Assembly: GCA_021819135.1 (NCBI GenBank)
Contig: JAKASE010000005.1
Coordinates: forward strand, 1-64,000
Source: Thermoplasmata archaeon
Lineage (GTDB): Archaea; Thermoplasmatota; Thermoplasmata; Lutacidiplasmatales; UBA184
Direction of reading: 5' to 3'
DNA length: 64,000 nt
Below the pieces are notes generated by a model. That model was not told where the DNA came from and searched no databases. It saw only the letters and a program-made list of their open reading frames with translations. Below, piece by piece: positions 2,527-45,325 of the stretch. Made by a program: the position numbers and the translations under genes. Within the stretch, counting starts at the first letter, position 1; every line of letters starts with the position of its first letter.

Positions 2527-3975
2527 CTACGCCGGGGTCGCCGCGACCGCGGGGGTGCTCGCGGGCGCCGCCGGCTTTGGCGGAGGCACGAGCGCTTTGT
2601 AGACGAGGTCCATGAGGCCAGAGTAGGCGACCTTGTCCTTCGTCTCCTTGTTGAACTTCGGGAGGACCGCGTTGAGCTGCGCCTTGCAGATCGCGCACGG
2701 CCGGACGATGTGCTGGCCGCCGACCGAGCGGGCGTCGTCGTACCAGAGCCGGCCGTAGGCGAGCCTTAGCGGCATCAGCTCGTCGGTGAGCATCCCCGCT
2801 CCGCCGCCGCAGCACCAGGTGCGCTCCCGGCTATGGGGCGAGTCCTGGTGGTCCCGGGTCACGTGCGCGAGGATGAACCGCGGCTCCTCGGTCAGGTCGG
2901 CCGCGCGCGCGTAGTTGCACGGGTCCTGGTAGACGTACCGCGTGGCGCCGTTGAGCGAGGGGTCGAGGGTGACCTTCCCGCCCTTGATCGCATCGATCAC
3001 GAGGTGGAAGACATGGACCGCCTCGAAGCCGTTCTCCCGGAGGCGCGGGATGACATACTGCTTGAACGCGCGCCAGCCGTGCCCGCACTCGCCGGCGACC
3101 ACGAGCCGCACATCGAGCTTCCGCGCGACCGAGACGATGTGGTCGCCGATCTTCGCGAGGTGCCGCTCGTCGTTGAAGAGGCCGAAGTTCCCGAGCTCGG
3201 CGTGCTCCGTCGTGAACGTGTAGTCGAGCCCGGCGAGGTAGAAGAACGTCATGTACCCCTTCAGGGTCTCGAGGTTCAGGAAGAAGTCCGCGGACGGCGG
3301 GACGAGCATGGCGTAGGCGTGCTCGTCGACCTTGTAGCGCGGCACGAACCCCTTCTCTTCTTGGATCTCGTCCCGGCAGAACTCGATCGTGGTCTTGATC
3401 GCGGGGGGTGGGAGGCCGAGGTTGTTCCCCGTCCGCTCGCTCGACTCGATGACCGTCCCCACGTACCGCGAGATGATCCCGTTGTCGTAGAAGACGGAGC
3501 GCACCGCCCGGGTCACGTCCGCCTGGTCGAGACCGAACGGGCAGATCTCGCCGCAGCGGCGGCACTCGAGGCACTGATGGTAGTAGGTCGCCATCCGGCG
3601 GGCTCCCTCGTCGGTGAGCCGCTCGGCGCCGACGAGGTTCTTGAACCACTTGCCCGCACGCGTCTCGGCCCGGAGCGCACGGCGCACGAGGTCGGCCCGA
3701 CCCACCGGGGAGTTGTGGATGTCGCCGGTAGTGAGGTACGTCGGGCAGGCGTTCAGGCATGCCCCGCAGTGCACGCAGGCGTCGATCGTGAGCCGGACGT
3801 TCCGATTGGCCTCGACCTGCTCCTTTAGCCCACAGACGACGTCGTGGGCGAGGTTGCCCGTTCCCTTCTTCCGGGGCACGACCTTGTCGAGCTTGGCCAG
3901 CATCTCCGGCTTCAGCCAGAACGGCGGCACCTGGGAGCTATCGCCCCAGACGAGCTTGGAGGCCACCTCGGTCAT
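2527..3975 (-). CDS. dsrK: DsrK, HdrD-like subunit of the DsrMK membrane complex
   Basis: A 482-residue cytoplasmic iron-sulfur protein. Two 4Fe-4S motifs lie near the N-terminus (CVHCGACLNACP and CLECRRCGEICP). A CCG domain follows, with the CNY, CCGGGAG and CAICKAQ cysteines that bind the catalytic noncubane cluster in HdrD/DsrK proteins. DsrK exchanges electrons with the DsrC trisulfide/dithiol pair. It is the last gene of dsrABMK and its start overlaps the dsrM stop (ATGA). The C-terminal 20 residues form a Pro/Ala-rich tail. No dsrJ, dsrO or dsrP follows, as in the minimal DsrMK type. Confidence 0.92.
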   Translation of the reverse strand: MTEVASKLVWGDSSQVPPFWLKPEMLAKLDKVVPRKKGTGNLAHDVVCGLKEQVEANRNVRLTIDACVHCGACLNACPTYLTTGDIHNSPVGRADLVRRALRAETRAGKWFKNLVGAERLTDEGARRMATYYHQCLECRRCGEICPFGLDQADVTRAVRSVFYDNGIISRYVGTVIESSERTGNNLGLPPPAIKTTIEFCRDEIQEEKGFVPRYKVDEHAYAMLVPPSADFFLNLETLKGYMTFFYLAGLDYTFTTEHAELGNFGLFNDERHLAKIGDHIVSVARKLDVRLVVAGECGHGWRAFKQYVIPRLRENGFEAVHVFHLVIDAIKGGKVTLDPSLNGATRYVYQDPCNYARAADLTEEPRFILAHVTRDHQDSPHSRERTWCCGGGAGMLTDELMPLRLAYGRLWYDDARSVGGQHIVRPCAICKAQLNAVLPKFNKETKDKVAYSGLMDLVYKALVPPPKPAAPASTPAVAATPA

Positions 3976-4757
3976 GGGGATCCTCCCTGATGTGCCTCGA
4001 GCCCCGGCAGGGGACGGACCTTCTCGGTCGTCACCGGGAAGCTCGGCCCGGTCACGCTCGGGTTGAACAGGTAGCCGACCCAGTGGACCATCTTACCCCA
4101 CGGGATGTACGCGATGAAGAGGCACGCGACGAGCACGTGCAGGATCGTGAAGATCCCGACGGACGCGATCGGCGCGAGGTTCGGGTGGAACTCGATGATC
4201 GAAGTGAGCCAGGGAGAGACGGTGTTGAGGTAATCCGGGCGGATGACCAGGGTCTGCATCAGGCCGAAGAACATGATCAGGAGCAGGAGCCCCGGCGTGA
4301 AGTAGTCCTCGAAGTTGCTGAGCTGGCGCATCCGTTCCAGGCTGAGCCGGCGCACGATCAGGATGAGCATCCCGACGAACGCGAGCACCCCGGCGGTCCC
4401 GCCGATATACAGGCCGACGAAGTCGTGCTGGCTCGCCGTGAGGGGAAGCGGCACGACCAGACCGAAGTGAGAGATGAGGACGACCCAGATCCCGTAGTGG
4501 AAGATCATCCCCCCGTAGATCAGGACCCGGTCCTTCTCCATCTTCGGCAGCGTGTAGAACCCGAAGACCCGCTTGATGAGGTCCCAGAGGACCCGGCCGT
4601 ACCCGAAGGTGTACGGCACGATCGCGACGGAGCGGAGCCCGGTGATGCGACGGGGGCGGAGCCACTGGACGAGGCGGTAGAGCGCGCCGATGACGAGCAG
4701 GGCGACGGCCAGGTACGGCGCGACGAGGAAGACCCCGATCTGAACTATGGGGTCCAT
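3972..4757 (-). CDS. dsrM: DsrM, NarI-like cytochrome b subunit
   Basis: A 261-residue membrane protein with five hydrophobic segments (about residues 4-32, 78-104, 112-138, 153-172 and 198-221). Histidines near the second and fifth segments (FHYGIW, ILHVLVA) are suited to heme b binding, as in the nitrate reductase gamma family. DsrM passes electrons between the membrane menaquinone pool and DsrK. It lies between dsrB (gap of four bases) and dsrK (four-base overlap), so the complex is made from one transcript. Confidence 0.9.
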   Translation of the reverse strand: MDPIVQIGVFLVAPYLAVALLVIGALYRLVQWLRPRRITGLRSVAIVPYTFGYGRVLWDLIKRVFGFYTLPKMEKDRVLIYGGMIFHYGIWVVLISHFGLVVPLPLTASQHDFVGLYIGGTAGVLAFVGMLILIVRRLSLERMRQLSNFEDYFTPGLLLLIMFFGLMQTLVIRPDYLNTVSPWLTSIIEFHPNLAPIASVGIFTILHVLVACLFIAYIPWGKMVHWVGYLFNPSVTGPSFPVTTEKVRPLPGLEAHQGGSP

Positions 4758-4761
4758 GCAC

Positions 4762-5883
4762 TCACCGCGGCAGGAACTGTCGGACCCCGAATCCCGTGTT
4801 CAGTTCTCCGGGCCGGTTCCAGCGCCCGAGGGGGACCTTGAGCTGCTCGAAGACGCGCTTCATGCCGACCCGGTTGACCCAGTCGGCGATCCGCTCGCCC
4901 GACTCTGCGTCGGCGCGCCAGACGTCGATGATCTTCCGCACGACGGCGACCGTCTCCCGGTAGTCCGGGGCCTGGGCCGGGATCCACGGGACGAGCACGC
5001 GCGCCAGGGTCGGGCCGACCCCGGTGTTGCTCGACTTCCCACCGATCAGGACCGATACGCCGATCTTCGCCGGGTCCCAGACGACGTGGTCACATACGTC
5101 CTTGCAGCGCCCGCAGCCGATGCACTTCTTCGCGATGATCTCGACGCCGACCGATCCGTCCGGCTTCGGGAACGACTTGATCGCGTTGACCGGGCAGACC
5201 ATCTGGACCTCGGGCGTGACCTTGCCGAGGACCTCCGCGCGCATGGGCAGGCACATCCGGACGCGGTCCTGGTCGAAGTCGGGGGCCGCTCCGTAGTGGC
5301 CGGTGAGCACGATGTCGGAGACGAGCCCGCCGCAGCTCGTCGGGCAGCCGCCGACGTTGATCCGCAGCTTGGCGGGGAGGGGGATCTTGCCGGTAAAGTA
5401 GGGGGCGAGGTGGTTGTAGAGCACCTGCACGAGGCTCGGGGCGTCCACCACCGCGGTCGTGCACGTCAGGTAGGAGGTGCACGACTGGATCGACCAGAGC
5501 GTGTGGCCCCAGCCGCCCACGAAGAAGCCCATCGCCTCGGCCTCCCGCTGGACCTTCTGGGCCGCGGCGAGGCTCTCGGTGAAGATCTCGATGCTTCCCG
5601 AGCGCGTGAACCGGAGCGCGTGGCTCCCGAACGCGTCCGCGATCTTCGCGAACTTGCGCAGGGTCTCGGTGCTGAACCGGATGTTCGAAGGCCCGCCGAT
5701 CTTCACCGTGAACACGTGGTCGCCGGTGTCCGAGATGTGCTCGACGATGCCGGCGCCGTGGAACTTGCGGTCGGCCCAGTGGCCGACGTTGCGCGCGAGG
5801 AAGTCGGGGAGGTACTTCGTGTAGGGGACCGGGACGGTCTTCTTCAGCCGCTCGACGGGCGCGCGGGCCATGGTTGCGCTCAT
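4762..5883 (-). CDS. dsrB: Dissimilatory sulfite reductase beta subunit
   Basis: A 373-residue subunit that carries the catalytic siroheme and its coupled 4Fe-4S cluster. The cluster ligands appear as CTSYLTC (Cx5C) and CPTSC (Cx3C). A ferredoxin domain follows with a complete CIGCGRCKDVC motif. The first ATG (MSATM) is used here; MARAP four residues later is an alternative. It follows dsrA by six bases and precedes dsrM. With DsrA and DsrC it interconverts sulfite and the DsrC trisulfide. Reductive or oxidative use cannot be read from the sequence by eye. Confidence 0.93.
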   Translation of the reverse strand: MSATMARAPVERLKKTVPVPYTKYLPDFLARNVGHWADRKFHGAGIVEHISDTGDHVFTVKIGGPSNIRFSTETLRKFAKIADAFGSHALRFTRSGSIEIFTESLAAAQKVQREAEAMGFFVGGWGHTLWSIQSCTSYLTCTTAVVDAPSLVQVLYNHLAPYFTGKIPLPAKLRINVGGCPTSCGGLVSDIVLTGHYGAAPDFDQDRVRMCLPMRAEVLGKVTPEVQMVCPVNAIKSFPKPDGSVGVEIIAKKCIGCGRCKDVCDHVVWDPAKIGVSVLIGGKSSNTGVGPTLARVLVPWIPAQAPDYRETVAVVRKIIDVWRADAESGERIADWVNRVGMKRVFEQLKVPLGRWNRPGELNTGFGVRQFLPR

Positions 5884-5889
5884 GGTTCT

Positions 5890-7122
5890 TCACCCCTCGT
5901 ACTCGTGGGCGATCGCTTGGGACCAGTCGGCGTAGGTCTTCCGCTCCGCGTCGCTGAGGACGCTGCTCGTGACGATCCGCGGGGCGCCGGGAACGTGGCC
6001 CGACGTCTCGACCGGGAGCGAGTCCTTGAACTTCGCCACGATCTTGTCGTATCCCTCCTGGACGAGGAGGTCGCCGAGCCGGTCCTTGTGCGGCGAGCGG
6101 TCGGACCAGTAGTCGATCACCTTCACGATGAACGGGGCCACGGTCCGGGCGTCGTCGAGGACCGCCACGGGCTTCGCCATCTTCGGGCCCCAGCGGCCCT
6201 TCGCATTGCCGCCGATCGTGAAGGCGATCTTACGGTTCGGACCGGCCTTGATGGCCGGGAAAGCGTGGCGGATGCAGTTGCTCGACTTCTGGCACTTCGT
6301 GCCGTCGATGGAGAGCGTCTTCGTGGCGGCGTCCCAGCGGATCGCCTTCCCCGGGCACTGCTTCGCGAGCTTCTCGGGGTCGACCTCCTTCTTCTCGACG
6401 CGCTCACGGAACCCCTTCTGGTCGATGGCCGGGGCGCCCTCCCAGAATCCGACGAAGCCGAAGTCCGAGCGGTGGGTCGCTCGGGAGCAGTCCATCGGGC
6501 AGGCGCTCACCTTGAGCTTGATCTTGAACGGAAAGAGCTGGCTCGAGAGCTTCGAGTGGATATCGGGGTACTGGAAGTAGAAGTCCCGGATCGCCAGCGA
6601 GTCGAAGAGCGCGTACTCACAGAGCGCGGGGCCCACGCAGACCGCGGTGTCCCGGTAGGTGTCGCCCGTCCCGCCGAGGTCCGTCCCGATCGCGCGCAGC
6701 GCGTCCACGGCGGCGTTCGCCTTGTCGGCCTGCATCGGCACGATCATGTCGCCGGTCTGGCCGACGGCCTCGACGCTGCCGAGACCGTACTGGTCCGCGA
6801 TGTCGAGCAGCTTGCGGAGGTCGTCCGTCCGGTAGATCTGGCCCGACGGGTGGTAGACCCGGAAGTGGAGCTCGGTGTACTTGCCGTCCTTCGTGCGTCG
6901 CGCAATGAACCCGACGAAGACCGCGGGGATACGGGCCGATCCGCCGTACCACGGTGAGAACCCCTGGCCGAGACCCTTCGCGTACGCATCGATCGGGTAC
7001 CCGCCCTTCTTGAGCTCCGTGACGTAGCTGGGCCAGGGCCCCTTCTCGAGCCGGTTGAGGTATTCCCGGCCCTTGTCCAGCAACGGATCCCCCACGGACG
7101 TTCCTTGCGCTGACGAAGCCAT
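5890..7122 (-). CDS. dsrA: Dissimilatory sulfite reductase alpha subunit
   Basis: A 410-residue DsrA. It has CVGPALC (Cx5C) and CPMDC (Cx3C) in the siroheme region, then a ferredoxin domain. In that domain the usual C-x2-C-x2-C stretch reads C-Q-K-S-S-N-C, so the middle cysteine is serine (codon tcg on the coding strand). The start at 7122 (MASSAQ) is chosen because an aggag Shine-Dalgarno precedes it and the longer frame runs back into the TATA-like box. It is the first gene of dsrABMK. The missing ligand could change or remove the electron-relay cluster; that is inference. Confidence 0.92.
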   Translation of the reverse strand: MASSAQGTSVGDPLLDKGREYLNRLEKGPWPSYVTELKKGGYPIDAYAKGLGQGFSPWYGGSARIPAVFVGFIARRTKDGKYTELHFRVYHPSGQIYRTDDLRKLLDIADQYGLGSVEAVGQTGDMIVPMQADKANAAVDALRAIGTDLGGTGDTYRDTAVCVGPALCEYALFDSLAIRDFYFQYPDIHSKLSSQLFPFKIKLKVSACPMDCSRATHRSDFGFVGFWEGAPAIDQKGFRERVEKKEVDPEKLAKQCPGKAIRWDAATKTLSIDGTKCQKSSNCIRHAFPAIKAGPNRKIAFTIGGNAKGRWGPKMAKPVAVLDDARTVAPFIVKVIDYWSDRSPHKDRLGDLLVQEGYDKIVAKFKDSLPVETSGHVPGAPRIVTSSVLSDAERKTYADWSQAIAHEYEG

Positions 7123-10014: not shown

Positions 10015-10386
10015 TTAGCTCCAGCTGAGGCTGATGTCGGCCGTCTCGGCGTAGTCGAAGAACTGGGCCACTCCCTTGATCTGGACACCGGGGATGAGAT
10101 CCTCCTTTTTGATGTTGAACGTCTGGGCGGACGCCGAGCAGACCTCCAGGGCGACGCCGGACTTCGGGCACTCGGCGAGGCGGTTGCGCAGCTTCTCCTC
10201 GAGCTTCTGGTAGACCTGGTTCTTCGTGACCAGGGCCGAGTCGAGGGCGAAGAAGATCTTCGTCTCGTAGCCCATCGCCGCGGCGGCGAGCGCGTATCCG
10301 AGCATCGTGTCGATACGGGCCGTGTCGCCGGGGGTCGTGGTCGAGAAGAACGCTACGCGCTTCGGCCGTCCGGGGTCTTCGGGCAT
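10015..10386 (-). CDS. DsrE-family protein next to dsrC
   Basis: A 123-residue protein of the DsrE/DsrF-like fold. It opens with a beta strand, VAFFSTT, followed by a helix that includes the YALAAAAMGYETKIFFA segment, and has a Cys in LEVCSAS at the usual active-site strand end. Proteins of this family carry sulfane sulfur on a cysteine or serve as structural partners. It lies beyond a strong hairpin downstream of dsrC on the same strand, so it probably has its own promoter (the tcaattggggttaac region upstream). It is one of several DsrE-like genes in the window; the specific partner is unknown. Confidence 0.75.
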   Translation of the reverse strand: MPEDPGRPKRVAFFSTTTPGDTARIDTMLGYALAAAAMGYETKIFFALDSALVTKNQVYQKLEEKLRNRLAECPKSGVALEVCSASAQTFNIKKEDLIPGVQIKGVAQFFDYAETADISLSWS

Positions 10387-10590: not shown

Positions 10591-10929
10591 CTACACGCAT
10601 CCCGTGGGCTTCGGCGCCCCGGCGACCTTGCACGCGCCGTGGGCGGGCCCGTCCACGAAGAGATTGTACATGTCCTCGAGGGTGATCCCCGTCACCTTCG
10701 TGATGATCTTGATGGGGGGGCAGACTCCGTACGTCTCCCAGTACTGACGGAGGTACCGAACGAACTTCCAGTGCCCATCGGTGAGCGTGGGCATCCCGAG
10801 GAGGTTCTTCGCCATCCACAGGGCCACCTCGTCGTTCCATGCCTCCGGGTTCTGAAGGAACCCGTCCTCGTCGAGCTGCACCTTGCGTCCGGCCACATCG
10901 TACTCTCCCGGTACGGTAACTGAAGTCAT
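10591..10929 (-). CDS. dsrC: DsrC sulfur-carrier protein
   Basis: A 112-residue DsrC/TusE-family protein. The C-terminal arm reads GACKVAGAPKPTGCV and so contains both functional cysteines (Cys100 and penultimate Cys111, ten residues apart). This identifies a true DsrC rather than a TusE-like protein with one cysteine. DsrC binds the sulfur atom produced or consumed by DsrAB as a trisulfide, which DsrK then processes. The start at 10929 gives MTSVTV, a typical N-terminus; the ORF reads further upstream but lacks homology there. It is transcribed away from the siroheme genes. Confidence 0.95.
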   Translation of the reverse strand: MTSVTVPGEYDVAGRKVQLDEDGFLQNPEAWNDEVALWMAKNLLGMPTLTDGHWKFVRYLRQYWETYGVCPPIKIITKVTGITLEDMYNLFVDGPAHGACKVAGAPKPTGCV

Positions 10930-11060
10930 CCCTTCACCGCGGGTCTCTCGACCTACGGCCGAAAGGGGTGAGGCCGAGCATACAAACCTTCTGTGTGGGC
11001 CGTTTGAGCATCCCTCGGAGCTGCGAGGGCGGGGTCCGACCGACGGCGGGACCCCCGTCA

Positions 11061-11780: not shown

Positions 11781-12733
11781 GCGCCATGTCCCGCGGGCGG
11801 GTGTTCCTGGTCGGGGCGGGTCCGGGGGACCCGGGGCTTCTGACGGTACGCGCCCGCGAGCTCCTCGCCTCTGCCGACGTGGTCCTCTACGATGGACTGG
11901 TCGGGCGCGGGGTCCTCGACCTGGTCTCTCCGAAGGCCGAGAAGACCCGGGTCGCGAAGGGCCCCCACCACGGGGACCGGTTCCCCCAGGCGTCGATCAA
12001 CGAGCTCATGATTCGCGCGGCCCGCGCGGGAAAACGAGTGGTCCGCCTCAAGGGCGGGGACGCCCTTCTCTTCTCCCGCGGGGGGGAGGAGGCGGATACC
12101 CTGCGACGGTACCGGGTCCCGTTCGAGATCGTCCCGGGAGTCACCTCGGCCCTTGCCGGTCCGGCCTACGCGGGGATACCGCTCACCGAACGGGGGTACT
12201 CGTCGTCCGTGGCGTTCGTGACCGGTCACATGAGCGCCTCGCCCGACCACCCGTCGCTCGACTGGACCGCCCTCAGCCGGGGTGCGGACACCCTGGTGAT
12301 CCTCATGGGCGTGGCGAAGTGGCGGGAGATCGCCCGGGCCCTGCTGCGGGCGGGACGGGAACCCGAGACCCCCGTCGCCGCGGTGCGATGGGCGACCACC
12401 CCTCGTCAGCGGACGACGCTGTTCACGCTCGGCGAATCCACCCGGACGGCGGTGCGCGCGCGTCTCGATTCCCCGAGCGTGCTCGTGGTCGGGCGCTCGG
12501 TCGGCCAGGCCGACCGCCTGCGCTGGTTCCCCCGGGAACGCCGCTGGGCCTCACCGGGGTACCGCAAGGTCGCCTCCCGCCTGCGGACCGCCGGCCCGGC
12601 GACCTCACGGGGAACGGAGGGTCCGCCGCGATCCCGGGCCCGGTCGGCCCGTCGCTCGGCTCCTGCTTCCGCACCCTCTCGGAGGGGCGCCCGGAACCGC
12701 GTATCGTCGCAGGGAAGACCGCGGCGTGTCTAG
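11777..12733 (+). CDS. cobA: Uroporphyrinogen-III C-methyltransferase
   Basis: A 318-residue SAM-dependent methyltransferase with the diagnostic VGAGPGDPGLLTVRA start, the RLKGGDALLFSRGGEE loop and the IVPGVTSA strand. It makes precorrin-2, the substrate of the enzyme encoded just upstream. About 60 residues at the C-terminus form an arginine/serine-rich tail beyond the normal domain end, possibly unstructured. The start may be GTG 11777 (overlapping the upstream stop) or ATG 11786. Confidence 0.9.
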   Translation: MSAMSRGRVFLVGAGPGDPGLLTVRARELLASADVVLYDGLVGRGVLDLVSPKAEKTRVAKGPHHGDRFPQASINELMIRAARAGKRVVRLKGGDALLFSRGGEEADTLRRYRVPFEIVPGVTSALAGPAYAGIPLTERGYSSSVAFVTGHMSASPDHPSLDWTALSRGADTLVILMGVAKWREIARALLRAGREPETPVAAVRWATTPRQRTTLFTLGESTRTAVRARLDSPSVLVVGRSVGQADRLRWFPRERRWASPGYRKVASRLRTAGPATSRGTEGPPRSRARSARRSAPASAPSRRGARNRVSSQGRPRRV

Positions 12734-12755
12734 GGGGAGGGCCGGAGTCGTACCG

Positions 12756-14210
12756 ATGCCCGCGAAAGAGCGCGCCGCGCCCCATGGCGGGGTCGGTTCC
12801 GCCGCGCGGATCACCGTCCCCCGGGTCGTGGTCTCCTCCTACCGGGGCAAGGGCGGGAAGACCCTTGCCACGATGGCGATTCTGGCGGCGTTCACCGGCG
12901 CCGGGCTCCGGGTCTCGGCGTTCAAGAACGGCCCGGACTTCATCGACCCCGGCCACCACGCGGCCGTCCTCGGCTCGCCGAGCCGCAATCTCGACGTCGT
13001 CCTCATGGGCGACCGCGTCGTGGAGCGGTTCCACCGCTACTCTCGGGACTCCGAGCTCGCCGTCATCGAGGGGAACCACGGGCTCTACGATAGCGCCGAC
13101 GGTCTCAGCGAGATCGGCAGCACGGCCCAGCTCGCGAAGCTCCTGCACGCCCCGGTCCTCCTCGTCATCGACGCCGAGCGATCGAACCGGACCCTCGGAG
13201 CCCTGGTCCGGGGGCTCCGGGTCTTCGACCCCGACGTCCGATGCATCGCCGCCATCGTGACGAACGCCGTGCCGCGCCAGTTCGACCGCGTCCGGGCGAT
13301 CGTGGAGCAGGAGGGGCTACCGGTCGTGGGGATCCTGCCCCGGGACGAAGCCATCGGGGCGCAGATGGAGTACCGCCATCTCGGGCTCGTACCGATCGCC
13401 GAGGGAGCGCAGGGCCCCCCAGTGGTCGAGCTCATCCGTAGCCGGTTCGCGTCTCGGATCGATACCGGTCCCCTCCTCAAACGGATCCGGGAGGCGAACG
13501 AACCCGTCCCCGTCCGGACCAGGTCGGCCGCGCCGGTCTCCAAGCACCGGCCGTTCCGGCTCGGCTTCCTCGCAGGGCGTCCGTTCACGTTCTATTACCC
13601 CGAGATGCTCGAACGTGCCCGCGAGCTCGGGAGCGTGGCGATGATCGATCCCGAGACCGACTCGGCGCTCCCGCCGCTCGACCTGCTTGTCATCGGAGGG
13701 GGGTTTCCCGAGGTCTACGCGCGGACGCTCGAGCGGAATCGTTCGCTCCGCGCGGCCGTGCGATCGTTCGTGGACGGGGGAGGTCGCGTCTACGCCGAGT
13801 GCGGCGGCCTCATGTACCTGACCGATGCGATCGTCACCCGGGAAGGCCGGTTCGAGATGGTCGGGGCCATCCACGGGGAGACGGTCCAGGAGGTCCGGCC
13901 GGTCGCGCACGGCTATGCGAGGGCGCGGGTCGTGCGGGACACGCCGTTCGCCTCGCGGGGCACGCTCCTGCAGGGGCACGAGTTCCATTACTCCCGGGTC
14001 GACCTCGCAGAGCCGTACGACCTCGCGCTCGCCTACGAGCACGGCCGCGGCCTCTCGGACGGAAAGGACGGTATCCGGGTGAAGAACCTCTATGCTCACT
14101 ACCTTCACCTCCACCCCGAGACGCTCTCGGTCCTCGACGCGATCCTGGGGACGGCCTCGGTCGGGCGAGCCCCGCGGGCTCCTCCCCGGACCGGAGGGAA
14201 AGAACCGTGA
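12756..14210 (+). CDS. CbiA-type amidase, likely DsrN (siroheme amide synthase)
   Basis: A 484-residue cobyrinate a,c-diamide synthase homologue. The N-terminal ATP-binding domain has SSYRGKGGKTLATMAIL and FKNGPDFIDPGHH. The C-terminal glutamine amidotransferase domain has the cysteine in YAECGGLMYL and the histidine near LYAHYLHLH. Next to dsr and siroheme genes, CbiA homologues (DsrN) amidate siroheme to the siroheme amide found in DsrAB. A role in cobalamin or F430 synthesis cannot be excluded. ATG 12756 is preferred over GTG 12726 because a G-rich ribosome-binding stretch precedes it. Confidence 0.85.
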   Translation: MPAKERAAPHGGVGSAARITVPRVVVSSYRGKGGKTLATMAILAAFTGAGLRVSAFKNGPDFIDPGHHAAVLGSPSRNLDVVLMGDRVVERFHRYSRDSELAVIEGNHGLYDSADGLSEIGSTAQLAKLLHAPVLLVIDAERSNRTLGALVRGLRVFDPDVRCIAAIVTNAVPRQFDRVRAIVEQEGLPVVGILPRDEAIGAQMEYRHLGLVPIAEGAQGPPVVELIRSRFASRIDTGPLLKRIREANEPVPVRTRSAAPVSKHRPFRLGFLAGRPFTFYYPEMLERARELGSVAMIDPETDSALPPLDLLVIGGGFPEVYARTLERNRSLRAAVRSFVDGGGRVYAECGGLMYLTDAIVTREGRFEMVGAIHGETVQEVRPVAHGYARARVVRDTPFASRGTLLQGHEFHYSRVDLAEPYDLALAYEHGRGLSDGKDGIRVKNLYAHYLHLHPETLSVLDAILGTASVGRAPRAPPRTGGKEP

Positions 14211-16231: not shown

Positions 16232-16612
16232 CTAGGCGACGTTCGGCATCTCGGGGGCCGGAAGGTGGTCTTCCTCCCGGGCCGCCTCGGTCTTCAGCGC
16301 ATCGATGCGGCCGAGCACCTTGTCGATCACCTTCGGCCCGGTCGACCGTTCGCGCACGATCTCCTCGAAGAGGGCGTGCTTGAACGAGACCGGCAGCTCC
16401 TCGAGGAACCCCCGGGAGTCGGTCCGGGACCGGGTGAACGCCGCGAGGAGCTTCTGGCTCTGCTCGGGACTGACCCGGAGGATCAGGGCCTTGATCGCGC
16501 CGCCGAAGAGGTCCGACATCTCGTGCTCGAGCGGCGTGCCGCGGATCGTCGCGACCCGCTTCGGGTCGAGGAGCACCGCGAGCGAGTAGCCCGCGGGCGC
16601 GGGGGCGCTCAT
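16232..16612 (-). CDS. Conserved small protein co-translated with sat
   Basis: A 126-residue protein with no recognised domain. It is predicted to be helical, with a hydrophobic stretch AIKALILRVSPEQSQKLLAAF and a charged C-terminus. Its ATG overlaps the sat stop codon (ATGA), so it is translated with ATP sulfurylase. Archaeoglobus fulgidus is reported to have a small unknown gene next to sat and aprBA; whether this is the same family needs a profile comparison. A chaperone, subunit or regulator of Sat is a reasonable but untested guess. Confidence 0.6.
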   Translation of the reverse strand: MSAPAPAGYSLAVLLDPKRVATIRGTPLEHEMSDLFGGAIKALILRVSPEQSQKLLAAFTRSRTDSRGFLEELPVSFKHALFEEIVRERSTGPKVIDKVLGRIDALKTEAAREEDHLPAPEMPNVA

Positions 16613-17997
16613 CGGTGGCCTCCGGCGGCGATCGCGGGGGCCGCTTCCATCCTCGGCACGGTGACCTCGAGCTCCTGCTCCCGGGCGCTGAGGTAGTGCT
16701 TGTTGTTGAACGGATAGCCGAGCTCTCTCCACCACTTCACGACCACGCGGTAGACCTCCGGCCGCATGATCACCGGCGGGGGCGCGAGCCCCTCGGCGAG
16801 CAGGCTGCGGATGAAGCTCCCGCTGAACCGCTGCACGACGTCCATGTGGCCGCAGTTCGCGTTGTAGGCGATCTCCCCGCACTTCGGGCAGTACCAGAAC
16901 TCGCCCATGTTCTGCGGCCGAAGGACGAGGCCCTTGTCGACCTCGCAGGGCGGGGCGTCGAAGCCGAACCCCGGGATCCCCTTCGTCCAGAGCGTCTGGG
17001 TGGCGTAGGAGTCGTAGTAGTCGCCCACGGCCGCGTGGTCGCGTCCCCACATGTGGTGGGTGCAGCCGAGGTTCTGCCGCACGATCCCGTGGAGCAGCGA
17101 CTCGAGCGGGTTCCCGTAGCGCATGTCCCAGAGGACGAACGAGACGACGTGGCGGTCCGGCTTCACGTAGTTCGCCGTGTGGACCGCTTCGTGCGCCTCG
17201 AGGATCGCCTCGTCCGGATAGTCCCCGATCCGCTTCGCGCCGACGATCGCGTTGACGAGGATGCCGTTCGCGGGCTCGGTGTCGCCCATGTACGCGGCGT
17301 TCTTCATCAGCATCTCGTGGCCGAGGTGCGGGACGTTCCGGGTCTGGTGCGCGATCACCGTCCGCCACTTCCGTCGGGCGAACTCCTCCCGCGACTTCGC
17401 GGGCGGGAGCCAGAAGCGGTCGAAGGGGGCGCGGAAGGTCGGTTCGTTGATGATGGTGTACTTCCCGGCGAAGACCACCGGGTTGAGGTGGAGGTAGATG
17501 TTGTATCCCGGGTGCTTCGGGTCGAAGGCGTGCTTCACGACCCCGGGGACGGTCTCCGGCGTCCCGAACGTGCGGGTGGCGACGTCCTTCGGGTCGATCG
17601 AGTAGACCTCGTTGATGTCCAGGGTCGCGAACGGCTGGCCCTTGAGCTTGAGCAGGAGGCGGTCGCCGCCCTTGACCTTGAGACGGCTCTTGTCCTCCTC
17701 GCTCACGTCGAAGAGCATCGGGAACGGGAAGACCCAGCCGCTCTCGAGGCGGCGCTCCTTGAGGACCCGCTCGAGCTCGTTGCGGCCCATCGAGCCTTCC
17801 ACGGGGCTCAGGAACCCGTAGCAGGTCGACATGATCTCGCGGTAGACGTTGCGGATCGGCATGTCCTTGTCATGGGTCGGCTGGATGTCGTAGCTCGTAC
17901 AACCGGCGATGAGGCTCCGGGCCTTGTCGGCGTCGCGGACGACGCGGTCCACGAGCTTGCCTCCGTGCGGCGGCGGGATGCTCATCTTCAGCGACAT
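16609..17997 (-). CDS. sat: Sulfate adenylyltransferase (ATP sulfurylase)
   Basis: A 462-residue homo-oligomeric type ATP sulfurylase. The substrate-binding motif QTRNVPHLGHE is clear, as are MWGRDHAAVGDYYD and the zinc-binding cysteines in YCPKCGEIAYNANCGH. It interconverts sulfate plus ATP with APS plus pyrophosphate. The start at 17997 is supported by AGGAGG about ten bases before it; the open frame extends upstream without homology. Promoter elements lie about 100 bases upstream. The aprBA genes are at two distant places rather than beside it. Confidence 0.95.
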   Translation of the reverse strand: MSLKMSIPPPHGGKLVDRVVRDADKARSLIAGCTSYDIQPTHDKDMPIRNVYREIMSTCYGFLSPVEGSMGRNELERVLKERRLESGWVFPFPMLFDVSEEDKSRLKVKGGDRLLLKLKGQPFATLDINEVYSIDPKDVATRTFGTPETVPGVVKHAFDPKHPGYNIYLHLNPVVFAGKYTIINEPTFRAPFDRFWLPPAKSREEFARRKWRTVIAHQTRNVPHLGHEMLMKNAAYMGDTEPANGILVNAIVGAKRIGDYPDEAILEAHEAVHTANYVKPDRHVVSFVLWDMRYGNPLESLLHGIVRQNLGCTHHMWGRDHAAVGDYYDSYATQTLWTKGIPGFGFDAPPCEVDKGLVLRPQNMGEFWYCPKCGEIAYNANCGHMDVVQRFSGSFIRSLLAEGLAPPPVIMRPEVYRVVVKWWRELGYPFNNKHYLSAREQELEVTVPRMEAAPAIAAGGHR

Positions 17998-18099
17998 TCG
18001 TTCAGTTCCTCCTGCGTGGTCCGAACGGCCGGGGACGCGGGTCCTGAGACCGCCTCGCGCGGCACCGTCCCTCCCCGAGGGTGCGCAGCGGCGATGCGG

Positions 18100-32936: not shown

Positions 32937-33196
32937 GCGCGGCCGAGGGAACCGAGAAGGGCGGGGCGGCCCCGCGCATGATCGTCGACGCTCGGGGGAG
33001 CTGGTGTCCCGGCCCCCTCATGGAGCTCGTGCGGGTGATCAAGGAGGAGCCGGTCGGCACCGAGTTCGAGCTCCTCTCGAGCGACGAGGGCTCGCGGAAG
33101 GACGTGCCGAGCTGGCTGCAGAAGGCGGGCCATGCCCTGCTCGAGGTCCAGAACGAGTCCGGCTACGACCGGTACGTGATCCGGAAGACGCACTAG
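32933..33196 (+). CDS. tusA: TusA sulfur carrier, copy 2
   Basis: An 87-residue TusA with the motif ARGSWCPGPLMELVR. It overlaps the preceding DsrE-like gene by four bases, so the pair is likely made in equal amounts. It differs from copy 1 in having a 15-residue N-terminal extension. Role as persulfide carrier follows from the family. Confidence 0.86.
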   Translation: MSAAEGTEKGGAAPRMIVDARGSWCPGPLMELVRVIKEEPVGTEFELLSSDEGSRKDVPSWLQKAGHALLEVQNESGYDRYVIRKTH

Positions 33197-33246
33197 AGAC
33201 CCAGGGATACGCAACGCATCGAAACGAAGGAACGGAGGAAACCGCG

Positions 33247-34392
33247 GTGAAGCGAGTGGTGGTGCTGGGAGGAGGGATCGGCGGAACGACGGTGGCGAAC
33301 CGGATTCGCAAGGCGCTCGAGGGCGAGGTCGCGAGCGGGCAGGTCCAGGTCCAGCTCGTGGATCGGGAGGGGGTCCACGCCTACCAGCCGGGCTACCTCA
33401 TGGTCGTCTTCGAGAAGATGCGCCCGGAGGAGACCCGCCGGGACGAGAGCTTGCTCCTCCACAAGTCGATCCAGCTCGTCAAGGGCGAGGTCGAGAAGGT
33501 CGACGGGGCCGCCAACAAGATCGTGCTCAAGGGCGGCAAGGACCTTCCCTACGACATCCTGGTCATCGCGAGCGGTTCGGTGATCCACCCGGAGCTCACG
33601 CCCGGGTTCGTCGAGGGGGCGCACAGCTTCTACGACCTCGAGAACGCGCAGAAGCTCCGGGGCGCCCTGCACGGATTCACCGGCGGCAAGATCGTGATCT
33701 CGGTCGCCGGGATGCCCTACAAGTGCCCGGTCGCCCCGCTCGAGGTGACGTTCATGCTCGACGACTACCTCCGCAACCGCGGGATCCGCGACAAGTGCGA
33801 GATCCACTACACCTACCCGATCCCGAAGGTCTTCGGGATCGACACGGTCGCCCAGCCGATGCAGCGCCTGATGGGGGAGCGCGGGATCACCGTGCACATC
33901 CCGTTCAACGTCGACAAGATCGACCCGGCGGCGAAGAGCATGAAGTCGGTCGAGGGGGACACCCTCCCCTACGACCTCCTGATCGCGATCCCGCCCCACC
34001 GCGGCGCCGACTTCGTGGGCGCCTCGGGGCTCGGCGACAAGGGGAACTGGATCCCGACCGACCGCTACAGCCTGAAGGCGGACGGCCGCGAGAACATCTT
34101 CGTGCTCGGGGACGCCACCAACATCCCGATCTCGAAGGCGGGAAGCACGGCGGACTACGAGGCCGAGGTCGTGACGCAGAACGTCGCGTCGATGGTCCGG
34201 GGAGAGGCCCCCACCGCGCGGTACGAGGGCCGCGTCTACTGCTGGATCATGACCGGGCTCGCGCAGGCGACGTACATCAAGTTCGACTATCTCCATCCGC
34301 CGCACCCACCGACCCCGTCGTTCGCGCACTACTGGAACAAGGTGATCTACAACCGCACCTACTGGGACCTCACGGCGCGGGCGCTGTTCTGA
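33247..34392 (+). CDS. SQR-like FAD/NAD(P) oxidoreductase
   Basis: A 381-residue flavoprotein of the sulfide:quinone oxidoreductase superfamily. It starts VVVLGGGIGGTTVANRI and has GYLMVVFEKM and the FAD contact IFVLGDATNIPISKAGST. A cysteine in YKCPVAPLEV sits where SQR-type enzymes have a redox cysteine; a second clear one is in YCWIM. The final 20 residues, rich in aromatic and basic residues, could touch the membrane. The GTG 33247 start follows a GGAGG. Sulfide oxidation is plausible but the number of catalytic cysteines is not decisive. Confidence 0.78.
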   Translation: MKRVVVLGGGIGGTTVANRIRKALEGEVASGQVQVQLVDREGVHAYQPGYLMVVFEKMRPEETRRDESLLLHKSIQLVKGEVEKVDGAANKIVLKGGKDLPYDILVIASGSVIHPELTPGFVEGAHSFYDLENAQKLRGALHGFTGGKIVISVAGMPYKCPVAPLEVTFMLDDYLRNRGIRDKCEIHYTYPIPKVFGIDTVAQPMQRLMGERGITVHIPFNVDKIDPAAKSMKSVEGDTLPYDLLIAIPPHRGADFVGASGLGDKGNWIPTDRYSLKADGRENIFVLGDATNIPISKAGSTADYEAEVVTQNVASMVRGEAPTARYEGRVYCWIMTGLAQATYIKFDYLHPPHPPTPSFAHYWNKVIYNRTYWDLTARALF

Positions 34393-35123: not shown

Positions 35124-36248
35124 CTAGCTCGACGCCGGGACGAGGGCCGCCGCCGCGAGGATCGTCTCGACGAGGTCGTCAGGCGTCGCTCCCACGAGCG
35201 TGACGCCGCAGCCCCGGTACCAGTCCCAGACGGTCCGCCCGATGTCGACCCGCACCAGCGGGACGCCGGCGAGCGCCGACTCGAGCTGCTCGAGGCAGCC
35301 CTCGAACGGCTGGGTGAAGAAGTCCCCCGAGACCTGCAGCTCGAGGAGCCGCCCGTGCCGGTGGAGGAGCGTGACGCGCACGAGCTTGCCCGCCTTGCGG
35401 TCCGCCCGCGCGACCACCGTGTCGTTCGCGATCTTCACCGCCCGGCCGTCCTCGGCGGACGTGCCGATCGCGGGGTGCGCCCGGTCCCGGCGGAAGGTCC
35501 ACGCGTCGTCCGACCGGGTCCGGACGAGACGGTCGAGCGCGGCCGACTCCTCCTCCGTGAGCGGCCCGGGCTCGAGCGGCACCCCGAGGGCCCGCGCGTA
35601 CTCCTCCCGGAGGATCGCCACGACCCGGTCGCGGTCCGGGAACGCGCCGGTGACCGCCTTGACACTCGTGAGCCAGTCCGACATCCCGGTCGCGAGCTTC
35701 CCCCGGAACTTCTCGTCCGGCACGTTGAGCACGCGGCTCATCGCCGCGATATCGAGATCGAGCAGGATGTCCCCGGCGAGGACCCAGCTCTCCTCGAGCG
35801 TGGTCGCCCCGTTCGCGCTGACCTTGCGCCCGCCGGCCGCGAGGTCGTTCACCCCGGACGGCTCCGCGGTGACGCCGAGCCGGGCGAGGGCGGCCCGCAC
35901 GGGCGCAAGGTAGTGCGCGTAGAACCCGGCGACCGTTCCCTCGGTGCCCGGAGCGCCGTGGGGGACGACCACCATGTAGTCCTGCTCCCACGGGCCGTCC
36001 AGGATCGCCCCGCCCCCCACCACCCGCCGGACCACGGGGATCCCGCTCGTGCGGCAGTAGTCGAGGTCGACCTCCCGCTCCGCTTCCTGGTGGAACCCGA
36101 CGTTCGCGAACGGGGCCTTCGGGTACAGGGCGAGGACCGTCGGCGGGGACCGTCCGGCCCCCACCGGGCCCGCGAGCGCGACGAACGTGTTGACCATCGT
36201 CGCGCCGTCGACCGCCCCGAGGTCGAGCCAGCGCCACGCGTCGGGCAT
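35124..36248 (-). CDS. Lipoate-protein ligase of the sHdr system
   Basis: A 374-residue LplA-type ligase. The lipoate/ATP-binding signature is RRVVGGGAILDGPWEQDYM, and AGGRKVSANG matches the GRKxSG motif. The C-terminal 110 residues look like the accessory domain that in some archaea is a separate LplB. It should attach lipoate to the LbpA protein encoded two genes upstream. ATG 36248 is chosen because GGAGGGG stands before it; a GTG at 36263 lacks such a site. It is the last gene of the sHdr operon. Confidence 0.82.
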   Translation of the reverse strand: MPDAWRWLDLGAVDGATMVNTFVALAGPVGAGRSPPTVLALYPKAPFANVGFHQEAEREVDLDYCRTSGIPVVRRVVGGGAILDGPWEQDYMVVVPHGAPGTEGTVAGFYAHYLAPVRAALARLGVTAEPSGVNDLAAGGRKVSANGATTLEESWVLAGDILLDLDIAAMSRVLNVPDEKFRGKLATGMSDWLTSVKAVTGAFPDRDRVVAILREEYARALGVPLEPGPLTEEESAALDRLVRTRSDDAWTFRRDRAHPAIGTSAEDGRAVKIANDTVVARADRKAGKLVRVTLLHRHGRLLELQVSGDFFTQPFEGCLEQLESALAGVPLVRVDIGRTVWDWYRGCGVTLVGATPDDLVETILAAAALVPASS

Positions 36249-36268
36249 CGCGCCCCTCCGCACCGGGC

Positions 36269-36676
36269 CTAGAACGAGACGACCGAGTCCGCCTCGAGGG
36301 CGAGGTCGGCCATCGTCGCGGACCCGACCAGCTTCACGCCGTCGATCAGGTCACCGGGCGCGATCTCGCAGAGGTCGCGGCAGCTCTCGGCGCAGGCGAG
36401 GAACTTGACGCCGTTCTCGAGCGCCATGTCGAGGAACATCTTGAGGTTCCCGCCCTTCTTGAGGGGGACCTTCTCGGCCGCCCCCTTTCGCAGCAGCTCG
36501 GGGGCGTGCATCAGGAAGTACATCGTCGTGTCGATCTCCATCGCGGCCATCAGGGCGGCGGTGTAGAACGGCGCGTAGGTCTTGTCCGGGTCCTCCGGCC
36601 CGGTCGTCATGATCATCAGGATCTTCTTGCCCGCGTTGTCGGGCGGGCTCGCCTCGGGGGTCGTCGCGTCGCTCAC
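36269..36676 (-). CDS. DsrE-family protein in the sHdr operon
   Basis: A 135-residue DsrE-like protein with ILMIMTTGPEDPDK, FYTAALMAAMEIDTTMYFLM and two cysteines in FLACAESCRDLCEI. It lies between lbpA and the lipoate ligase, 13 bases after lbpA. The position suggests it delivers sulfur to, or takes it from, the sHdr-LbpA machinery. The cluster CxxxCxxxC (ACAESCRDLC) is more cysteine-rich than in the other DsrE copies of the window. Confidence 0.75.
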   Translation of the reverse strand: MSDATTPEASPPDNAGKKILMIMTTGPEDPDKTYAPFYTAALMAAMEIDTTMYFLMHAPELLRKGAAEKVPLKKGGNLKMFLDMALENGVKFLACAESCRDLCEIAPGDLIDGVKLVGSATMADLALEADSVVSF

Positions 36677-36689
36677 GGCCCGTCACCCC

Positions 36690-37139
36690 TCAGGTCTGGC
36701 ATCGCAGGCACCGGATATTGTCCTTCTCGAGGATCTCCTTGAACCGGGCGAGCGCCGACTCCCCCGAGAGGAGCGTCGCGAGCTCGGCCGGGGCGGCCGG
36801 GGTCATCCGGACGATCCAGCCCTTGCCGTACGGGTCCGTGTTGAGGAGGGAGGGGTCCTTCTCGACCTCGGGGTTCGACTCGGTCACGGTCCCCGCCACC
36901 GGGGCCATGACCGGACCGGCCCACTTGCCGCTCTCGACCGTCGCGATCGGCTTGCCGCGCTCCCGGACCGTGCCGGCCGCCTTCACGCGGATATGCAGGA
37001 CCTTGCCCGCCCGCGTCTGCGCCGGGTCGGTGAGGCCGATCCGGATCTGGTCGCCCTCCACCTTGACCCACGTCATCTGGGTGCGTTCGACGAAATACGA
37101 CCGATCCTCGGGGAACTCGCATCCGTTCAATATCGCCAT
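36690..37139 (-). CDS. lbpA: Lipoate-binding protein (LbpA/GcvH-like) of sHdr
   Basis: A 149-residue GcvH-like protein. The lipoyl-lysine hairpin reads VATVESGKW-type: ATVESGKWAGPVMAPVAGTV with Lys72 as the attachment site. In sHdr systems LbpA carries sulfur intermediates on lipoate. Near its C-terminus are two extra cysteines (CLRC, residues 144-147), which GcvH proteins normally lack. It directly follows shdrB2, the standard place of lbpA. Assignment to LbpA rather than glycine-cleavage H protein rests on context, since no gcvT or gcvP is seen. Confidence 0.85.
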   Translation of the reverse strand: MAILNGCEFPEDRSYFVERTQMTWVKVEGDQIRIGLTDPAQTRAGKVLHIRVKAAGTVRERGKPIATVESGKWAGPVMAPVAGTVTESNPEVEKDPSLLNTDPYGKGWIVRMTPAAPAELATLLSGESALARFKEILEKDNIRCLRCQT

Positions 37140-37147
37140 GGACCGCC

Positions 37148-39511: not shown

Positions 39512-39518
39512 CCTCCCC

Positions 39519-41857: not shown

Positions 41858-41874
41858 CGTCCCTCCGTTCCTCC

Positions 41875-42873: not shown

Positions 42874-44721
42874 CTACGCCGGCGCGACCGGTACGGTCGG
42901 CTTCGCCATGGGCAGGTACTTCACCTTCTCCATGGTCCAGATCCCCGAGACCGGGTCCCGCCGAGAGACGAGGAAGAGCTTCCAGTTCTTGTCGTCGACC
43001 TTCGGGAAGTCGGAGCGGTAGTAGTAGCCGGGCCAGCGCGTCTCCTCCCGGGCCAGCGTGTGGCGGACGACCGCCTCGGCGGTCCAGACCCGGTGGACGA
43101 GCTCCCACGCCCGCGTGAGCTGGTGCAGGTCCTCGGCCCCGAGGTACTCGAGGTCCTCGCGCAGCATCGTCAGGAGCTCGAGGCCGCGGTTCAATAGGTC
43201 CGCGTTGGTCATGTAGTAGGACGTCCAGCCGCCCGCGTACTCGTCCATGATCTTCTCGAGGCGCTTCAGACCCTGGGACGGGTAGAGGTAGTACGGCGAG
43301 ACGGTCCCCTGCGTGATGTAGTTGCGGCCGACCTTGTAGTTCTCGAGGGGCTGGAAGATCTGCTCCCCGTACTTGTCGACGGTCGCGGTGTCGAAGGCGG
43401 GGACGTGCAGTTCGTGGTCACGGACGAACCGCACCGCGCTCTTGCCCGCGATACGGCCCTCGGCGAACGAACCCGAGGAGAACTTGTGGGCGGCGCCGCC
43501 CGCCGCGTCGCCCGCGGCGAAGAGTCCGGTCACCGTCGTCATGTGGTTGTAGCCCCACTGGTACTCCTTCGGCGCGACGTCCTCGGGGCCGCTCACCCAG
43601 GCGCCCGCGTTGACCGCGTGCGAGCCCATGATGTACGGCTCCGTCGGCATGATCTCGTAGCCGCGGGTCGCGGGGTCGTGGTTCTGGGACGCCCAGAGCC
43701 CCGCCTGGCTGATGGTCATGTCGAGGAAGTCCTCCCAGCCGGCCTCGACCTTCTCCGGGGTGTCGAGGACCTTGTCCGTGTGCATGATGATCGGTCCGCG
43801 GCCCTCCTTCAGCTCCTCGATCATGAGGTGGTTCCGCAGGCACGTCGGCATCGGCTTCGCGTCGGCGTAGTCGCCCACGAGGGGCCGGAGCTTCTCGCGG
43901 TTGTTCTCGTAACGCTCGCCGAGACGGTTGGTCGCGTAGGCCTTCAGGTAGAGGAACCACGCCCCGACCGGGCCGTAGCCGTCCTTGAACCGGGTCGGGA
44001 TGAGCCGGACCTCCATCTGGGTCATCTTGGCGCCGGCCTGGATCTCGAGCCCGTAGGCGGACCCCGAGCTCCAGGGCGAGTACCAGGTACGGCCCCAGCC
44101 CTCTCCGACGGACCGGGGTCGGAAGATGTGCGTCCCCCCGCCCGCGGCGAGCACGACCGCCTTCGCCTTGAAGACGAGGAGCGAGCCGTCCCGCCCGTCG
44201 AACCCGATCGCGCCGGCGACCCGGTTCGGGTCGTTCTTGTCCATGAGGAGGTGGGTGATGACCGCGCGGTTCACGACCTCGCTCGCGGCCTTCCGTCCCG
44301 CCTCGGCGACGATCGGCTTGTAGCTCTCGCCGTGGATGAGGATCTGCCAGCGGCCCTCCCGGACGTACTTGCCCGTCTTCTCGTCCTTGATGATCGGCAG
44401 GCCCCACTCCTCCATGAGCCGGACGGAGGGGTCCACGTGGCGGCCGACATCGTAGTTGATGTCCTCTCGGACGAGGCCCATCAGGTCGCCCTTCGCGTAG
44501 TTCACGAAGTCCTCGACCTTGTTCTCGCCCTCCTCGTAGCCGAGGTAGGTGTTGATCGCCGACAGTCCCTGGGCGACCGCACCGCTGCGGTCGATGTGGG
44601 CCTTCTCGGCGATGACGATCTTGAGGTCCTTCCCCCAGAAGCGGGCCTCGTAGGCGGCCCCGCACCCCGCCATCCCACCGCCGACGATCAGGATGTCGGA
44701 GTCGACGTGCTTGACGTTCAT
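42874..44721 (-). CDS. aprA: Adenylylsulfate reductase alpha subunit, copy 2
   Basis: A 615-residue AprA with the FAD motif SDILIVGGGMAGCGAAYEAR, RFKDGYGPVGAWF, CLRNHLMIEELKEGRGP and PYIMGSHA. The ATG overlaps the aprB stop. It differs from copy 1 across the whole length, so it is an old duplication or separate acquisition. The position directly upstream of the sHdr operon suggests it may act on sulfite produced by sHdr; the reaction direction is inferred, not read. Confidence 0.93.
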   Translation of the reverse strand: MNVKHVDSDILIVGGGMAGCGAAYEARFWGKDLKIVIAEKAHIDRSGAVAQGLSAINTYLGYEEGENKVEDFVNYAKGDLMGLVREDINYDVGRHVDPSVRLMEEWGLPIIKDEKTGKYVREGRWQILIHGESYKPIVAEAGRKAASEVVNRAVITHLLMDKNDPNRVAGAIGFDGRDGSLLVFKAKAVVLAAGGGTHIFRPRSVGEGWGRTWYSPWSSGSAYGLEIQAGAKMTQMEVRLIPTRFKDGYGPVGAWFLYLKAYATNRLGERYENNREKLRPLVGDYADAKPMPTCLRNHLMIEELKEGRGPIIMHTDKVLDTPEKVEAGWEDFLDMTISQAGLWASQNHDPATRGYEIMPTEPYIMGSHAVNAGAWVSGPEDVAPKEYQWGYNHMTTVTGLFAAGDAAGGAAHKFSSGSFAEGRIAGKSAVRFVRDHELHVPAFDTATVDKYGEQIFQPLENYKVGRNYITQGTVSPYYLYPSQGLKRLEKIMDEYAGGWTSYYMTNADLLNRGLELLTMLREDLEYLGAEDLHQLTRAWELVHRVWTAEAVVRHTLAREETRWPGYYYRSDFPKVDDKNWKLFLVSRRDPVSGIWTMEKVKYLPMAKPTVPVAPA

Positions 44722-45149
44722 CGGTGGCCTCCCTTCACGGTCCCGAAGTGGGGCCCCTCATGCGCCAGGAGCTCGTTGTTCAGGGTCGGGTCCTTCAGGG
44801 TCGGGCCGGTCGGGACCTTGATCGAGTCCCACGGGGTGGTGCGGATCGCGAAGTCGAACTTCTTGACCGTCTTCTGGTCCCGATACTTGATCTCCCAGGC
44901 GATGCGGTTGGTCTTCTCGTCCCGCAGGACGGTGACCTCCGAGAGCATCGGGGAAATGTCCGCGTAAGGACGGACGCTGATCGCGTGCTCGGGGCAGGTC
45001 TTCACGCAGGAGAAGCATTCCCAGCACATGTCCGGCTCGAGGTTGTAGGAGAAGTTCGTCTCCTTGTTGACGAACATGATGTCGCTCGGGCAGATCTCCA
45101 TGCACTTTCCGTTGTTCTTGCACAGCTTCGGGTTCACGTAGGTTGGCAT
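44718..45149 (-). CDS. aprB: Adenylylsulfate reductase beta subunit, copy 2, first cluster lacks a cysteine
   Basis: A 143-residue AprB. The second 4Fe-4S motif is complete (CWECFSCVKTCP). The first reads C-KNNGK-C-MEI-CP: the second cysteine of the usual C-x2-C is asparagine. The start MPTYVN is preceded by a strong ggaggag site. The same motif is complete in copy 1. The residual three cysteines could hold a 3Fe-4S or altered cluster, and the electron-transfer partner may differ; both are inference. Confidence 0.9.
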   Translation of the reverse strand: MPTYVNPKLCKNNGKCMEICPSDIMFVNKETNFSYNLEPDMCWECFSCVKTCPEHAISVRPYADISPMLSEVTVLRDEKTNRIAWEIKYRDQKTVKKFDFAIRTTPWDSIKVPTGPTLKDPTLNNELLAHEGPHFGTVKGGHR

Positions 45150-45325
45150 TCGTTCACTCCTCCCGGTGACCGGGAGACCCGCGGCGAGAGACGCGGGCTC
45201 GACCATCCTCCGCCATCATCGGCGCCTCGACCGCGATACCGCCGGGGGCGGCGTCGGTCCAGTGCCGTCGTGCGACGAGGGTCGACACGGTCGCGTCCTT
45301 TCCGCGGGCCGAACCACCGAGTGGC

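Follow-up and report, generated by a model that had tools for sequence, protein, structure and literature searches.

Loss of a ferredoxin-domain cysteine is conserved across one clade of archaeal DsrA

RESULTS

A dsr locus with a serine in the DsrA ferredoxin domain

The window, i.e., the whole 64,000-nucleotide stretch of Thermoplasmata archaeon DNA analyzed here (contig JAKASE010000005.1), carries dsr genes in the order dsrA-dsrB-dsrM-dsrK, with dsrC, dsrN, a DsrE2-like gene, and sat nearby, as well as two copies of aprBA. The following features are relevant to this work.

5890..7122, minus strand: dsrA, archaeal-type alpha subunit (TIGR02064, E 1.8e-86; AlphaFold/Foldseek)
6283..6285, minus strand: Ser280 codon TCG (sequence, alignment)
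6274..6294, minus strand: ferredoxin motif C277-QK-S280-SN-C283 (sequence; Cys at the other ligand positions in all 75 DsrA scored)
6355..6357, minus strand: C256, upstream ligand of the ferredoxin cluster, the Cys of CP (sequence, alignment)
6487..6639, minus strand: siroheme-coupled cluster motif C162-x5-C168...C208-x3-C212 and sulfite-binding Lys202/Lys204 (sequence, alignment)
4762..5883, minus strand: dsrB, complete ferredoxin motif (TIGR02066, E 1.5e-92)
3972..4757, minus strand: dsrM-like membrane cytochrome b subunit (NF038037, E 1.7e-15; order kept in relatives)
2527..3975, minus strand: dsrK-like iron-sulfur subunit (NF045796, E 1.8e-94)
10015..10386, minus strand: DsrE2-like sulfur carrier (NF047629, E 2.8e-10; synteny)
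10591..10959, minus strand: dsrC with both C-terminal cysteines, C-x10-C-V (TIGR03342, E 3.6e-29; sequence)
12726..14210, plus strand: dsrN-like cobyrinate a,c-diamide synthase (TIGR00379, E 2.1e-106)
16609..18060, minus strand: sat, sulfate adenylyltransferase (NF003166, E 2.2e-143)
44718..45206, minus strand: aprB copy 2, first motif C-x2-N-x2-C with Asn32 (TIGR02060, E 6.4e-41)
42874-44721, minus strand: aprA partner of aprB copy 2

The dsrA open reading frame specifies a 410-residue product and is followed by dsrB 6 bp downstream. A DsrE2-like homologue also lies near dsrA in the relatives of the same DsrA type whose contigs have enough flank. The DsrA protein aligns to positions 1-399 of 402 of the NCBIfam dsrA model TIGR02064 with 290 bits, under the curated cutoff of 392.85, as does every DsrA found in our sample of the class Thermoplasmata. 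An AlphaFold model, which served only to confirm the DsrA fold (mean pLDDT 74.9; about 70-94 over the ferredoxin domain), found DsrA chains as its best PDB matches in Foldseek (2v4j_A, E 4.5e-22; 3mmc_A, E 1.3e-21), with TM scores of 0.73-0.76 by query length.

The original prediction that the middle cysteine of the DsrA ferredoxin domain is missing was borne out. The translation of ORF 5890-7122(-) reads ...QCPGKAIRWDAATKTLSIDGTKC-QK-S-SN-CIRHAFPAIKAG..., which places the ligand positions at C256, C277 (6292-6294), S280, and C283 (6274-6276). The expected C-x2-C-x2-C motif had been described correctly for the last three of these positions, and the upstream Cys of CP had been overlooked; this fourth ligand, C256, is intact. 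The window protein thus departs from the CX2CX2C pattern of a [4Fe-4S] ferredoxin and matches the [3Fe-4S] ferredoxin-domain pattern, in which the second motif Cys is replaced and the three others are kept. All remaining functional positions that we inspected are ordinary. As predicted, the siroheme-site cysteines C162, C168, C208, and C212 are present in a complete CX5CXnCX3C motif, and DsrB retains all four ferredoxin cysteines (C230, C254, C257, and C260). DsrA also has R88, R157, K202, and K204, which we take, from the Archaeoglobus structure, to be the cationic sulfite-binding residues. The DsrAB proteins of Archaeoglobus fulgidus (3mm5) and Desulfovibrio vulgaris (2v4j) share the fold, the siroheme-cluster motif, the sulfite-binding residues, and the inserted ferredoxin domain; unlike the window protein, their DsrA has C-x2-C-x2-C and a Trp where the window has Ala109. 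We read the window protein as an archaeal reductive-type DsrA with the ferredoxin motif CP...C-x2-S-x2-C.

The serine is inherited within a single archaeal clade

Our Thermoplasmata sample comprised 400 genomes. DsrAB was present in 18 of them and fell into two types: that of the window (type I), with eight genomes spread over several genera and three family groups, and type II, with the other 10. The named members of type I are metagenome-assembled genomes (UBA61, LL4.bin73, and WH2.bin83, among others). Ser is present in all eight type I DsrA, including 7/7 DsrAB-bearing relatives of the window's type, and Cys in all 10 of type II. Ser280 is neither chance nor error, since the seven same-type relatives share it. 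A sequencing or assembly error or a decaying pseudogene, which the score under the curated dsrA cutoff might evoke, can be set aside as having almost no probability: the low score is common to all DsrA found in the class, eight separate genomes and the complete genome of Pyrobaculum oguniense agree on Ser, TCG is two bases away from TGC or TGT so that a one-base error would not suffice, and the frame is open with every other functional residue retained.

Most sampled genomes in the window's own genus are devoid of dsrAB, and one genome of the same family (G041) has a type II, Cys-bearing DsrAB (L048). dsrAB is patchy in these archaea and has probably moved between lineages.

We next scored 75 distinct DsrA sequences from Thermoplasmata, Thermoproteota, and one further archaeal phylum; bacterial DsrA was sampled through solved structures and the literature, and viral contigs, considered as a source of bacterial or oxidative DsrA, returned no sequences. 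Position 280 is Cys in 42 sequences, Ser in 26, and Ala in seven, the last all from Vulcanisaeta. The other three ferredoxin ligands of DsrA are Cys in 75/75, and the four DsrB ferredoxin cysteines are Cys in all 71 sequences covering them. From these 75 sequences we built a maximum-likelihood tree with the trait column left out; it gathers all 33 Ser/Ala sequences and four Cys sequences into one clade (support 100/100), outside which every DsrA has Cys. This clade comprises Thermoplasmata type I, Pyrobaculum/Thermoproteus, and Vulcanisaeta, and the window DsrA falls inside it together with Pyrobaculum and Vulcanisaeta (support 100/100). The trait requires four changes on the tree, compared with a mean of 27.5 for shuffled labels: one basal, one turning Ser to Ala in Vulcanisaeta, and the remaining two in a subclade of Thermoproteales that regained Cys. 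Both TCN and AGY codons encode Ser in the clade. The count of 33 therefore reflects one old event and its maintenance, and statistical power is small, as these rows mostly represent one ancient loss. Alignment with the DsrA of relatives, as the original prediction had proposed, thus shows Ser shared by type I and then Ser or Ala across one archaeal clade. The possibility it had raised against itself, that the change is a common variant of reductive DsrA, largely holds within archaeal DsrA. Ser280 is an inherited, clade-wide variant and not private to the window's lineage.

The closest named relatives outside Thermoplasmata are Thermoproteales, including P. oguniense TE7 (51-53% identity, Ser), whose DsrA has C-x2-S-x2-C with an intact siroheme motif and an intact DsrB. 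The highest identity of a Pyrobaculum DsrA to the window protein is 53%; unlike the window, these genes reside in crenarchaeal hosts with two or three dsrAB copies per genome, and the Ser copies often lie beside sat and apr. DsrA is likewise C-x2-S-x2-C, with siroheme motif and DsrB intact, in the genomes that we take to be P. aerophilum and P. calidifontis; the identities of V. moutnovskia, P. islandicum, P. neutrophilum, and Thermoproteus tenax among the relatives are assumed in the same way. Vulcanisaeta DsrA (V. souniana and V. distributa) belongs to the same clade, with the same Cys lost and three kept, and differs in having Ala, which is incapable of iron ligation, instead of Ser.

Three DsrAB copies (L103, L104, and L110), two Ser-type and one Cys-type, coexist in one genome. 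The Ser-type pair lies in one cluster with tusA, dsrE2, dsrN, dsrC, dsrMK, aprAB, and sat, and the Cys-type copy in a separate dsrC-dsrBA-dsrM-dsrK cluster. We presume this genome to be that of T. tenax. The published gene layout of T. tenax fits it (PMC3189178).

AprB copy 2 and its neighborhood

The claim that AprB copy 2 loses the same position also stands. Its first motif is C-KN-N-GK-C, with Asn32 encoded by AAC (45111-45113, minus strand). The same Asn occurs in AprB of G041 (L129) and G214 (L122), and Cys is found in copy 1 and 13 other AprB. AprB copy 2 thus adds another example, after DsrA, of a cluster ligand whose loss is conserved.

The intervals 35124-42514 (minus strand) and 33004-34392 (plus strand) hold two HdrB-like genes, one HdrA-like gene, a lipoate-protein ligase gene, a DsrE2-like gene, and a type III sulfide:quinone reductase gene; all but the last adjoin aprBA copy 2. 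Together, these genes look like an sHdr-type sulfur-oxidation cluster on the same island as dsrAB.

DISCUSSION

A ferredoxin-domain cluster in DsrA is probably retained by the Ser/Ala clade, since three of its ligand cysteines are invariant while the fourth position is Ser or Ala; three cysteines would then suffice. The earlier suggestion of a [3Fe-4S] or Ser-ligated cluster fits the sequence to this extent, and small ferredoxins lend weight to its first half. Ferredoxins with CXX?XXC(X)nCP motifs that have Ser or Asn at the variable position have been isolated as [3Fe-4S] proteins, and Ala or Gly there makes the usual [3Fe-4S] motif; the potential of the Ser form is low and resembles that of cysteine forms (PMC6237146). 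Fdx9 (Ser) and Fdx4 (Asn) of Mycobacterium marinum lack exactly the second motif Cys, as DsrA does, and hold [3Fe-4S] clusters (PMC6237146); they differ from DsrA in being small soluble ferredoxins, and in DsrA the CP cysteine sits upstream of C-x2-?-x2-C. The DsrA cluster is most likely kept as a three-Cys [3Fe-4S] or as a weakly ligated [4Fe-4S] cluster.

Alternatively, Ser280 might itself ligate a [4Fe-4S] cluster through its oxygen and have been selected for this, with a low-potential relay to siroheme preserved. Ser occupies the position in 26 of the 30 clade members that do not have Ala (the other four have Cys) and is written in both codon families, and the Pyrococcus furiosus ferredoxin, with Asp at the position, was isolated as [4Fe-4S] in the absence of oxygen (PMC6237146). 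However, Fdx9, which has Ser, carries [3Fe-4S] as isolated (PMC6237146), and a Ser-ligated cluster is impossible for Vulcanisaeta because Ala stands there with everything else retained. A compensating ligand specific to the Ser/Ala clade was also considered and rejected: near the motif, we found no candidate conserved only in this clade, the nearest clade-wide residue being a Lys beside the Ser. We therefore regard Ser ligation as unlikely, though it deserves some credit. Nearly all members outside Vulcanisaeta have nevertheless retained Ser over a deep divergence, in TCN and AGY codons alike, a hint that the residue may have a role in ligation or hydrogen-bond donation, beyond mere tolerance.

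The three-Cys cluster could be harmless because of where it sits. One siroheme center per DsrAB heterodimer is catalytic, the DsrA site is inactive, and siroheme is held by one chain while its coupled [4Fe-4S] cluster is held by the partner chain (PMC10229431). The sulfite-binding R/R/K/K residues are invariant in our aligned DsrA sequences, bar one Lys-to-Arg change, and degenerate in DsrB; the catalytic siroheme would thus lie on the DsrA cations with the DsrB cluster. In the homologous F420-dependent sulfite reductase, Fsr, the electron relay is completed by the ferredoxin domain inserted in the second protomer (PMC10229431). By homology with Fsr, the DsrA ferredoxin cluster may serve only the structural site.

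The sequences show the substitution, its conservation and restriction to one clade, the constancy of the other ligands and of DsrB, and the asymmetric catalytic residues. From these we infer the cluster type, the electron route, and the tolerance argument, which combine into a proposal that we consider probable as a whole. At the root of one archaeal DsrA clade, an ancestral protein would have exchanged the second ferredoxin-motif Cys for Ser, which would later have become Ala in Vulcanisaeta and Cys again in one or two sublineages. The three remaining cysteines would hold a [3Fe-4S] cluster, or a [4Fe-4S] cluster with the fourth iron weakly bound to Ser or water. This cluster would lie on the noncatalytic DsrA arm, next to a siroheme-[4Fe-4S] center that is structural only. 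Electrons would reach the catalytic center, formed by the DsrA cationic residues and the DsrB cluster, through the intact ferredoxin domain of DsrB. The Cys loss would be tolerated because the DsrA cluster leads to the structural site and DsrB feeds the catalytic siroheme, in an otherwise ordinary DsrAB working with DsrC and DsrMK.

One residue of the structural site differs from Archaeoglobus, where Trp119 is said to block the DsrA-side siroheme; the aligned residue here is Ala109 (codon 6796-6798, minus strand). Trp is absent from this position in all Ser/Ala-clade and Thermoplasmata type II DsrA. Just 16 of the 76 sequences have it, and each of these is of the Cys type or truncated there. 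The structural site may accordingly be less closed in Ser/Ala members, and archaeal-type DsrAB may have an open second site.

The original prediction also extended to a different direction of the enzyme, which is not supported. Ala-type dsrAB lies beside sat-aprAB-dsrMK in a Vulcanisaeta genome (G492, V. distributa), every key gene of sulfate reduction is present in V. souniana (PMC9872577), and PMC8539903, citing Chernyh 2020, describes "Ca. V. moutnovskia" as a proven sulfate reducer. Since Vulcanisaeta, with Ala in the same clade, has the sulfate-reduction genes, the Cys loss does not imply an oxidative direction, and the missing Cys is no evidence of a reversed enzyme. A different electron donor, the other part of that prediction, may be in play; the operon has ordinary dsrM and dsrK genes, the residues of the catalytic site are intact, and DsrB, expected to feed the catalytic siroheme, has its full motif.

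A functional switch could nonetheless be imagined, in which Ser-type DsrAB would act with TusA/DsrE2 in sulfur oxidation, or in both directions, through another electron partner. tusA or dsrE2 lies within about 10 kb of dsrA in 13/17 Ser/Ala loci and in one of six Cys loci among the longer loci, counted by eye with shared descent included. The presumed T. tenax genome has its Ser copies with tusA-dsrE2-dsrC and aprAB-sat and its Cys copy elsewhere, the window also holds the HdrA/HdrB-like, lipoate ligase, and sulfide:quinone reductase genes, and the window's genome encodes terminal oxidases. The sulfate-reduction gene set of Vulcanisaeta (PMC9872577) and its reported sulfate reducer (PMC8539903) argue against such a switch, and DsrH was not found in the 18 genomes searched. 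As for DsrEFH, which lies beside dsrAB in oxidative-type Dsr, the window's genome yielded no DsrH but has DsrE2-like proteins and TusA. Ser and Cys genomes are not told apart by their terminal oxidases either. We consider a switch improbable. Equally doubtful is a broader version, in which the Ser/Ala clade would be a distinct, bidirectional DsrAB class tied to TusA/DsrE2, with a native DsrA [3Fe-4S] cluster and a shifted arm potential, in archaea with sat, aprAB, and HdrAB-like genes.

Two further ideas were discarded. Oxygen tolerance as the driver fails because haem-copper and bd oxidases occur alike in Ser, Ala, and Cys genomes. DsrD and DsrH were dropped as direction markers because they do not discriminate: DsrD, expected in reductive bacterial-type Dsr, turned up in a single Cys-type genome and neither in the window's genome nor in the Ser/Ala-type genomes searched, and DsrH in 0/18.

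The loss also bears on how the family is recognized. CX2CX2C has been called characteristic of DsrA (PMC7174415, 2020) and was stated as a DsrA inclusion criterion in a 2026 census (PMC12948486). This motif should not define the DsrA family, since 33 of the 75 scored archaeal sequences do not have it. Literal motif filters would drop or mislabel such DsrA in sulfate-reduction censuses, Vulcanisaeta included. We do not claim that this census excluded the clade, as it mentions Vulcanisaeta DsrA and its filter was perhaps not literal. We found no account of the Ser/Ala variant in the literature covered, which mostly leaves aside subscription journals, including the original Pyrobaculum Dsr report.

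To conclude, the variant is real, conserved, and clade-wide in archaeal DsrA, and a [3Fe-4S] cluster on the noncatalytic arm is its plausible counterpart. The clade offers a natural experiment, namely sulfite reductases that apparently work although one of their two ferredoxin clusters has only three cysteine ligands, and the Ser/Ala variant makes it directly testable which of these clusters supplies the catalytic siroheme.
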